Source: Rhodobiaceae bacterium
Lineage (GTDB): Bacteria > Pseudomonadota > Alphaproteobacteria > RS24
Direction of reading: 5' to 3'
NCBI GenBank assembly: GCA_024645085.1
Contig: JAHEGN010000011.1
Span: forward strand, 1-64,000
Length of the DNA: 64,000 bases
Of the stretch, positions 49,772 through 54,078 are shown in pieces; within the stretch, counting starts at the first letter, position 1; each line of letters starts with the position of its first letter. The notes under the pieces were generated by a model, which saw only the letters and a list, made by a program, of their open reading frames with translations, was not told the DNA's origin and ran no database searches. Position numbers and translations under genes: made by a program.

Positions 49772-49904
49772 TGTTTTGTCTCCCACGAAAGGCCAACTGT
49801 GCCAGCCGGTTTTTCATGCGTCAAGCCACCCCTTGACGGCAAACCGGTTTCGCGGGAACAATACAGCAGATAAGATAAATAACCTGCGACTAGGGGAGCG
49901 GTTC

Positions 49905-51131
49905 ATGAAAATTGTCATTCTGGGCGCCGGCCAGGCGGCGCTGCAAACCGCTTTGAGCCTGCGGCAAGGCAATTTTGACGGTGATATTGATATCGTCGGC
50001 AATGAGCGGTTTTTACCCTATCAGCGCCCGCCCCTGTCGAAAGCCTATTTGAAGGGCGCGCTTGACCGCGAGCGGCTGTTTTTGAAACCGCAAGAGTTTT
50101 TCGACGCGCAAAATATTACCGTGCATTTGGCCCAACAAGTGACCGCCATTGACCGACAAGCGCAGCGCATCAGCGGCGATAATGGTTTTGCGCTGGACTA
50201 TGACAAATTAGTGCTGGCCACCGGCAGCCGCCCGCGCCGCCTTGATTTACCCGGTCGTGATTTAGAAAATATCTTTGACTTGCGTGATATGGCCGATGTC
50301 GACGCCATGGCCGGTCAATTTCAAGCCGGTAAAAAACTGGTGATTATTGGCGGCGGCTATATCGGCCTTGAGGCGGCCAGTGTGGCCCGTGCCATGGGGC
50401 TTGAGGTGACGGTTTTGGAGGCCGCGCCCCGTCTTTTGGCGCGCGTCGCCGAACCAGAGATTTCTGAATTTTACGCCCAATTGCACCAAAGCCATGGGGT
50501 TGAAATTATCACCCAATGCCAGATTGCCGGCTTTCAGGGCAGCCAGCACGTAACCGCCGTTGACTTTGCCGATGGCAGCAGTTTGGCAGCCGATTTGGTG
50601 ATCACGGGCATTGGTATTTTGCCAAATATTGAACTGGCTGAGGCGGCCGGTATCGCGGTTGATAATGGCATTATTGTTGATGAGCTGGGGCGCACCAATG
50701 CGGCTCACATTTACGCCACTGGTGACTGCACGATGCACCCGAATAAACTACTGGGCCGCAATTTGCGCCTTGAGAGCGTGCCCCATGCCATTGAGCAAAG
50801 CAAGGCGGTGGCTTCGGATATTCTCGGTGCGCCGCAAGCCTATGCCGAAGTGCCATGGTTCTGGTCTGATCAATATGATGTTAAATTGCAAATCTCCGGC
50901 GTGCCGACGCAAATCGACAAAAAGATTTTGCGCGGCGATGGCGATAGCACGTCATTTGCCTGGTTTTACTTCACTGGCGACAAGCTGACCGGCGTCACCA
51001 CGGTCAATCGGGCGGCGGAATTTATGGCTGGCAAACAACTGATTTTGAGAGCCTTGCGCGACGGCGCCCGCATTGACCCCGAAGCGCTGCGCGACGAAAG
51101 CCAGAAACCGAAAAACTGGCTGGCCGACTAA
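49905..51131 (+). CDS. FAD-dependent ferredoxin reductase-like oxidoreductase
   Basis: 408 residues. FAD-binding KIVILGAGQAALQTALSLR, the second site LVLATGSRPRRLDLPG, NAD(P)-binding KLVIIGGGYIGLEAASVARA, and IYATGDCTMHPNKLL are all present. The C-terminal EVPWFWSDQYDVKLQISGVP marks the putidaredoxin/rhodocoxin reductase family, which passes electrons from NADH to a 2Fe-2S ferredoxin for P450s or Rieske oxygenases. No ferredoxin gene is adjacent. The ATG at 49905 has GGGGAG upstream. It is divergent from the TauD-like gene. Confidence 0.9.
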   Translation: MKIVILGAGQAALQTALSLRQGNFDGDIDIVGNERFLPYQRPPLSKAYLKGALDRERLFLKPQEFFDAQNITVHLAQQVTAIDRQAQRISGDNGFALDYDKLVLATGSRPRRLDLPGRDLENIFDLRDMADVDAMAGQFQAGKKLVIIGGGYIGLEAASVARAMGLEVTVLEAAPRLLARVAEPEISEFYAQLHQSHGVEIITQCQIAGFQGSQHVTAVDFADGSSLAADLVITGIGILPNIELAEAAGIAVDNGIIVDELGRTNAAHIYATGDCTMHPNKLLGRNLRLESVPHAIEQSKAVASDILGAPQAYAEVPWFWSDQYDVKLQISGVPTQIDKKILRGDGDSTSFAWFYFTGDKLTGVTTVNRAAEFMAGKQLILRALRDGARIDPEALRDESQKPKNWLAD

Positions 51132-53007: not shown

Positions 53008-53544
53008 TTAAGCGGCTTTCTCAGCCTGTAAATAATCAAGCAAGTTTTGCGGCGCGGTTTCGCCATAAGGGTCTTGCTCGCAATTGTCGCTGCGGCCAGG
53101 CTCTTCAAACCAAGCGCTGACCAAACCATTGTCAATAATCGCCGCATAGCGCCATGACCGCATGCCAAAACCAAGATTGTCCTTGTCGACCAACATGCCC
53201 ATGCCACGGGTGAAATGACCCGACCCGTCTGGAATCAGGCCGATGTTTTGCAGCTCATTTTTGCGACCCCATGCGTTCATAACAAAGGCGTCATTAACCG
53301 ATACGCAATATATCGCATCAATGCCAAGGGCACTGAATTGCGGATAAAGCCGCTCAAAGTCCGGCAATTGAAAAGTCGAACACGTCGGCGTGAAGGCGCC
53401 CGGCAAAGAAAATATAATAACCTTCTTGCCAGCAAAATAATCATCGCTGCTCATCTCTTGCCAACGATAGGGATTGTCGCCACCAATGGACTCATCGCGC
53501 ACACGGGTTTTGAAGCTTATTTGAGGAATAGTTTGGTTAATCAT
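53008..53544 (-). CDS. Peroxiredoxin (Prx5 family)
   Basis: 178 residues. The peroxidatic Cys55 is in the Prx5 motif FSLPGAFTPTCSTFQLPDF, and AIYCVSVNDAFVMNAWG is the second family hallmark. LGFGMRSWRYAAIIDNGLV follows. It reduces hydrogen peroxide and alkyl hydroperoxides, normally with glutathione/glutaredoxin or thioredoxin. No glutaredoxin domain is fused. Two ICE-like palindromes lie upstream, so iron- or haem-responsive control is plausible. It is divergent from the globin gene. Confidence 0.93.
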   Translation of the reverse strand: MINQTIPQISFKTRVRDESIGGDNPYRWQEMSSDDYFAGKKVIIFSLPGAFTPTCSTFQLPDFERLYPQFSALGIDAIYCVSVNDAFVMNAWGRKNELQNIGLIPDGSGHFTRGMGMLVDKDNLGFGMRSWRYAAIIDNGLVSAWFEEPGRSDNCEQDPYGETAPQNLLDYLQAEKAA

Positions 53545-53558
53545 GGGAGAAATCCTTT

Positions 53559-53575
53559 GTTAGAATGTTTCTAAT
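53559..53575. promoter_or_regulatory. ICE/Irr-like palindrome 1
   Basis: GTTAGAATGTTTCTAAT: TTAGAA and TTCTAA are perfect inverted arms with a 3-bp spacer. It fits the TTTAGAA-N3-TTCTAAA pattern I recall for the Irr iron-control element in 12 of 14 arm positions. It sits 14 bp upstream of the peroxiredoxin ATG. Confidence 0.55.
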
Positions 53576-53607
53576 ATATAGAGCGGGCAATCACATCTGT
53601 CAATGTT

Positions 53608-53624
53608 TTTATAATAATTCTAAA
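53608..53624. promoter_or_regulatory. ICE/Irr-like palindrome 2
   Basis: TTTATAATAATTCTAAA matches the TTTAGAA-N3-TTCTAAA pattern at 13 of 14 arm positions. It lies 33 bp from the first site and about 70 bp before the globin ATG. The surroundings are A/T-rich, so chance is less easily excluded than for site 1. Confidence 0.5.
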
Positions 53625-53694
53625 ATAAAAAACTGGCTTCACATTGAGAATTGCCGCAAAATTTAGTCTTATTTCACCAACCCTGAGAGCCCGA

Positions 53695-54078
53695 ATGAAC
53701 GCCGCGATTCTTCATACGATTGAGCCATTTGAGGGGCGGTTTGACGATTTTACGGCGCAGACTTATGAATTATTGTTTGCCCGCTATCCGGACTATTTAG
53801 ACATGTTTATATTGGATGTCGATGGCGGTGTGCAGCGCTCCATGATGCGCACCAGTATGGAGATTATCACCAGCTATGCGACCGGCGCTGATGTCAATAA
53901 TCGGCTTGAGGGCGCCCGCCTCAATCATTTTGGCTATGGCGTCACTGATGAGATTTTCGACCAGTTTTTCGACGTGCTGCATGAGATATTCCAACGCCAT
54001 TTGGGCGAGGCTTGGGGCGACGACCATCAGCGCGCGTGGCTGGAAATGCGGCAAAGCTTTGCCGCCACCGCTGGTTAA
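53695..54078 (+). CDS. Single-domain globin-like haem protein
   Basis: 127 residues of the bacterial globin fold. The N-terminal helices include [19 protein letters not shown], resembling the B-helix with a Tyr for ligand binding, and His78 in [12 protein letters not shown] is the likely proximal haem ligand. Possible roles are nitric oxide or oxygen handling; no reductase domain is attached. A TTG at 53644 would extend the frame, but the ATG at 53695 follows GAGAG and gives the usual length. The stop shares TTAA with the converging dehydrogenase gene. Confidence 0.82.

Follow-up and report, generated by a model that had tools for sequence, protein, structure and literature searches.

A peroxiredoxin gene (prx) and a globin gene diverge from a short intergenic region in a Rhodobiaceae bacterium (genome G000), and two palindromes lie between them. 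Which regulator uses these palindromes, and does it repress or activate the genes on either side? An initial annotation of the window, the whole stretch of 64,000 nucleotides analysed here, had read them as Irr/ICE-like sites at 53559-53624, set 33 bp apart in a 150-bp divergent region between peroxiredoxin and globin genes. The positions and the extent of the region (53545-53694, 150 bp, 35% G+C) held, whereas the spacing was measured as 32 bp, or 49 bp from centre to centre. Both neighbours were confirmed by Pfam (Redoxin/AhpC-TSA and Globin, respectively). The prx product contains PGAFTPTC, which we take to be the active-site stretch. The globin, for which an alternative upstream TTG start is possible at 53644, has an invariant His at position 78 and a Phe at position 38; its nearest profiles are single-domain haemoglobins and flavohaemoglobin globin domains (best E 3.5e-05). 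A reductase gene in the window lies ~2.5 kb from the globin, with prx and other genes intervening.

Table 1 Features of the prx-globin locus, with positions in the window.
Feature	Position	Strand	Remarks
Ferredoxin--NAD(+) reductase-like flavoprotein	49902-51131	+	Pyr_redox_2 and Reductase_C
prx (peroxiredoxin, 178 aa)	53008-53544	-	Pfam Redoxin, AhpC-TSA; start codon at 53544
ICE1, putative Irr-box GTTAGAATGTTTCTAAT	53559-53575	.	2 mismatches to consensus; genome-wide pattern scan
prx -10 TATATA (predicted)	53575-53580	-	Spacer to -35, 17 bp
prx -35 TTGACA (predicted)	53598-53603	-	Kept in relatives: TTGACA in G000 and G001, TTGACG in four others
ICE2, putative Irr-box TTTATAATAATTCTAAA	53608-53624	.	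1 mismatch to consensus; genome-wide pattern scan
Globin, single-domain, 127 aa	53695-54078	+	Pfam Globin, 24.4 bits (cut-off 22); ATG at 53695

To score the palindromes, we used the consensus TTTAGAANNNTTCTAAA, i.e. TTTAGAA-N3-TTCTAAA. ICE1 and ICE2 are the sole places in the window within two mismatches; at up to three mismatches the window holds four, an unremarkable number against a shuffle mean of 1.98. The whole genome (1,705,443 bases) contains four places within two mismatches, namely ICE1, ICE2, a perfect copy at C20:11228 and C33:58595, and a reversed control pattern gave seven. C33:58595 falls within an open reading frame and was dismissed as a chance match. We then derived a weight matrix from 30 sites in the other genomes of the family and scored with it the 48 genome places within three mismatches. 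It ranked the irr/rubrerythrin site first and ICE1 and ICE2 second and third (25.1 and 19.1 bits for the pair, 13.1 bits for the fourth place).

Palindromes might arise by chance in A+T-rich intergenic DNA such as this, and matches within three mismatches are common in the window. However, when the 150-bp region was shuffled 20,000 times with dinucleotide composition preserved, at least one site within two mismatches appeared in 105 shuffles and two sites in none. Moreover, ICE1 and ICE2 are identical at 34 of 34 bases in the congener G001, against 85 of 121 aligned columns in the remaining intergenic region. Both observations argue against coincidence, the probability of which we regard as negligible. 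Cooperative binding to ICE1 and ICE2 on one helix face was also considered and rejected, because the centre spacing of 49 bp in G000 becomes 50 bp in G001, indicating no fixed helical phase.

Two Fur-family proteins are encoded in G000, Irr and one Fur-like protein. The irr gene, whose presence the initial reading called for, exceeds the cut-offs of two NCBI models (NF045678, 190.6 bits, cut-off 150; NF045677, 178.8 bits, cut-off 170) and is flanked by a fabA-like gene (read from its translation) on one side and a rubrerythrin gene (rbr, by Pfam) on the other. The perfect ICE at C20:11228 lies 4 bp past the irr stop codon, ahead of rubrerythrin. Across the family, 25 of 28 genomes have an Irr match over the cut-off; none was found in G015, G018 and G020 (56-74% complete), although G015 and G018 still bear ICE sites. 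The HXH haem motif (as HHH) is present in all 25 family Irr proteins examined. An N-terminal Cys-Pro haem-regulatory motif is the mark of the degradation-type Irr of Bradyrhizobium. The N-terminal region of the G000 protein has no such motif, and a cruder scan of family Irr detected none in the 15 readable loci of 25. Its absence from G000 Irr makes haem-triggered release likelier than the B. japonicum degradation route.

The second Fur-family protein, which is Fur/Mur-like (G000:C20:32103-32459), could conceivably bind ICE1 and ICE2, being present in the genome and related to Irr. We consider this very improbable, because a perfect motif copy sits beside irr itself and a site lies directly behind irr in 21 of 25 family loci. 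Ownership of the sites by a PerR-type peroxide regulator is just as improbable. The target genes are peroxide defences, and ICE2 has a left half-site, TTATAAT, that looks like a PerR box, but no G000 Fur-family protein came near any PerR-model cut-off: the Fur-like protein scored 38.9-65.2 bits on models with cut-offs of 180-250, and Irr itself scored 30-62.7. Furthermore, relatives have complete ICEs at the corresponding position, for example TTTAGAATTATTCTAAA in G013.

Comparison with relatives supported the link between site and gene pair. We searched 61 genomes, 28 of them in the family, for the globin and found it in 22, of which 19 are family members. All nine divergent globins, six with prx as the partner (G000, G001, G006, G013, G021 and G026) and three with bacterioferritin (bfr; G005, G009 and G015, with TIGR00754 run on the G009 copy), have an ICE within two mismatches between the gene pair. 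The site is thus kept wherever the globin diverges from prx or bfr. By contrast, the globin follows a ferredoxin-NAD reductase-like gene in ten genomes (G002, G003, G010, G016, G019, G022, G023, G024, G025 and G027), and none of these ten has a site within three mismatches in the 260 bp upstream (9 of 9 against 0 of 10, p ~1e-5 by hand calculation), which again speaks against chance palindromes. At these ten reductase-globin loci (L020, L025-L031, L033 and L038), a small lipoprotein-like gene mostly stands in between. In the six prx-globin genomes, prx sits between reductase and globin. The recurring reductase neighbour suggests a possible electron donor for the globin.

In the globin tree, which carries a long-branch warning, the prx-linked globins fall in two places; the prx-globin linkage may nonetheless stem from a single ancient gain followed by losses. 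The prx gene itself (E <= 1e-30) occurs in 9 of 28 family genomes and stands away from the globin in three, G009, G020 and G024. Upstream of these unlinked copies, no site was found in G020 or in G024, the latter being a weak prx match. The G009 copy (G009:C128:5724-6245; L103, L114) has one internal stop and a 3-mismatch ICE upstream, and is perhaps decaying. In four g5 genomes (L021, L023, L034 and L035), the globin ATG is preceded at 6-7 bases by GATAAACT, which would give a leaderless mRNA.

Across the family, the motif recurs at rubrerythrin, katG and bacterioferritin genes. The irr-linked sites lie before rubrerythrin in 11 loci and before katG in 10, and the remaining four of the 25 loci examined have no ICE behind irr; in G003, one ICE precedes irr and another precedes katG. 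At the irr loci of genera g4/g5 (L073, L078, L081-L084 and L086-L089), katG replaces rubrerythrin with the same ICE-promoter joint. An irr-linked katG never co-occurs with prx in the six prx-globin genomes, in counts too small to lean on. G026 has a second katG type (G026:C20:5393-7974, L196), 62% to the ICE-linked katG and without an ICE, which adjoins a third Fur-family gene (39 bits on the Irr model); the two are possibly a PerR-like pair.

Both palindromes in the window are closely joined to a predicted prx promoter. Read along the prx strand, ICE2 is followed after 4 bp by TTGACA (53603-53598) and, past a 17-bp spacer, by TATATA (53580-53575) and ICE1 (53575-53559). ICE1 overlaps the final base of the -10 element and spans the predicted prx start at ~53568 (7 bases past the -10), which adjoins the ICE1 centre, and the centre of ICE2 falls near -48. 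A promoter scan of the region had returned two weak plus-strand hits only; it missed TTGACA-17-TATATA because its rule required T at -10 position 6. The ICE2-position site and the prx promoter are retained in 6 of 6 prx-globin loci with an ICE-to--35 gap of 4-5 bp throughout, and the ICE2 counterparts in the five relatives have 0-2 mismatches. Among these six loci, ICE1 is present only in G000 and G001, the globin promoters of which differ in an alignment judged by eye. The joint extends to all 30 irr-, prx- and bfr-linked family sites (11 rbr, 10 katG, 6 prx and 3 bfr): each lies upstream of the predicted -35, with TTGAC/T 3-6 bp away (17 at 4 bp, 7 at 5, 5 at 3 and 1 at 6).

With an irr gene present, near-consensus sites and conservation with the gene pair, the Irr/ICE reading of the initial annotation gained support at the level of predicted binding, and neither outcome that it had named as contrary was observed. 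The best explanation overall is that ICE1 and ICE2 are predicted operators of Irr, a haem-responsive Fur-family regulator of alphaproteobacteria, a reading in which we have considerable confidence. For prx in particular, we regard an Irr operator as highly likely. Conservation of the sites at both bfr-globin and prx-globin pairs points to control of the globin through ICE2, and Irr quite probably governs the globin as well.

Given Irr as the regulator, we infer that its net effect is probably repression. The near-consensus -35 element and its close joint to ICE2 together suggest this; activator-dependent promoters usually lack a near-consensus -35. ICE1 over the predicted start would occupy a repressor position, as at Rhodobacter sphaeroides mbfA (PMC3413700). 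Repression by Irr is also known for bfr and mbfA of Bradyrhizobium japonicum (PMC4902296). Under repression, haem scarcity would leave apo-Irr on ICE2, with a footprint reaching the -35, and on ICE1 over -10/+1, shutting the strong prx promoter; Irr at ICE2 would also lower expression of the globin on the other side. With ample haem, or after peroxide, Irr would be released or destroyed, and prx and globin would be switched on along with rubrerythrin. Peroxide defence and a haem protein would then be made at high iron/haem, hence at high Fenton risk.

The opposite sign is unlikely. Irr might activate prx from ICE2 in a class II-like position (~-48), so that an iron-free peroxidase takes over under iron shortage, with ICE1 as a brake in two genomes of one genus. 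The constant 3-6 bp gap, with the site upstream of the -35, would suit an activator, prx requires no iron, and the prx relatives outside genus g1 bear ICE2 alone. Irr binds ICEs without haem and represses or activates depending on ICE position, and direct activation is said to be far commoner for Irr than for Fur or DtxR (PMC7762939). In Pelagibacter, rubrerythrin and suf transcripts rise under iron limitation (PMC2864753), which fits activation by Irr if rubrerythrin and suf there carry ICEs. Against activation stand the near-consensus -35 elements and the recurrence of the same geometry at bfr and katG, whose products use iron or haem and which should be silent when iron is low. Moreover, loss of Irr somewhat raises R. 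sphaeroides ccpA, the start of which lies ~40 nt downstream of the box (PMC3413700). Repression thus remains our preferred sign.

Beyond the family, we scanned 250 bp upstream of 80 named prx loci of other bacteria, mostly rhizobia. Six of them have a site within two mismatches and 14 a site within three, where the remaining sequence of the loci predicts ~0.04 and ~0.8, respectively; the other 66, mostly rhizobial, have no site within three mismatches. By eye, the site abuts a -10-like TATATT at L137, L144 and L177, as ICE1 does, and L177 has two sites ~47 bp apart that resemble the ICE1/ICE2 pair. A profile search of 100 loci (these 80 prx loci and 20 class-pattern loci) found no globin beside prx in the 80 prx loci.

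Searching 385 genomes of the class for core-N{2,30}-TTGAC gave 20 matches, compared with 0 for the reversed control. The gap is 3-7 bp in 18 of the 20 (binomial 2e-12), or in 16 of 18 with G000 and G001 removed (7e-11). The genes that follow, read from translations with no profile, are mostly rubrerythrin, and also KatG, catalase, an AhpC-like peroxiredoxin and SufB. An unconditioned search for the exact core in 133 genomes found 24 cores, against 2 for the control, fronting genes read from translations as rubrerythrin, KatG, catalase, SufB, Dps-like and Fur-family. In the 23 of these loci that were read, TTGAC/T stands at a gap of 4-6 in eight, a ninth (L252) has it at a gap of 4, and several show other spacings. 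A class-wide 3-7 bp spacing rule was accordingly softened: the fixed joint holds as a rule within the family and is one arrangement among several in the class. Paired ICE-like palindromes also precede rubrerythrin at L238 (G075) and katG at L240 (G036) in other alphaproteobacteria.

Judged from sequence comparison, prx is very probably, and the globin quite probably, a new member of the known Irr regulon, not a new kind of circuit. Both genes would then follow iron supply via Irr sites, and the set of genes that alphaproteobacteria seem to put under a haem-sensing regulator would gain a peroxiredoxin and a globin. In the literature searched, which did not include the key 2006 regulon paper, we found no paper that names a globin or a prx among the targets of Irr, an absence that does not prove there is none. 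We further propose, tentatively, that in this lineage an ICE and a strong promoter with a 3-6 bp joint form a portable module serving peroxide-defence and iron-storage genes in turn, with rubrerythrin or katG after irr and prx or bfr next to the globin. In two or more globin clades, placement of prx or bfr beside a reductase-operon-type globin would have put the globin under haem control. The globin, perhaps reductase-fed, would then be part of a peroxide or haem-buffering response. One family holds the regulator site at one distance from the promoter, so whether Irr represses or activates from this geometry becomes simple to test.

These predictions can be set against three known systems. Pelagibacter ubique, likewise alphaproteobacterial and small in genome, has both fur and irr, and its rbr and suf are iron-responsive; its response rises at low iron, unlike the repression proposed here, and the word peroxiredoxin has 0 occurrences in the text of its iron paper (PMC2864753). 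Bradyrhizobium japonicum similarly has a Fur-family Irr acting via ICE motifs, but G000 Irr is without the CP motif, and the targets here include prx, katG and globin. In B. japonicum, bfr and mbfA are the tightest-bound Irr targets and are repressed (PMC4902296). Irr of R. sphaeroides also has a small regulon with oxidative-stress genes; unlike here, it has two predicted targets, neither of them prx or globin, and a weak iron response. Its starts, within the box at mbfA and ~40 nt downstream of it at ccpA, are comparable to the arrangements at ICE1 and ICE2, respectively (PMC3413700).
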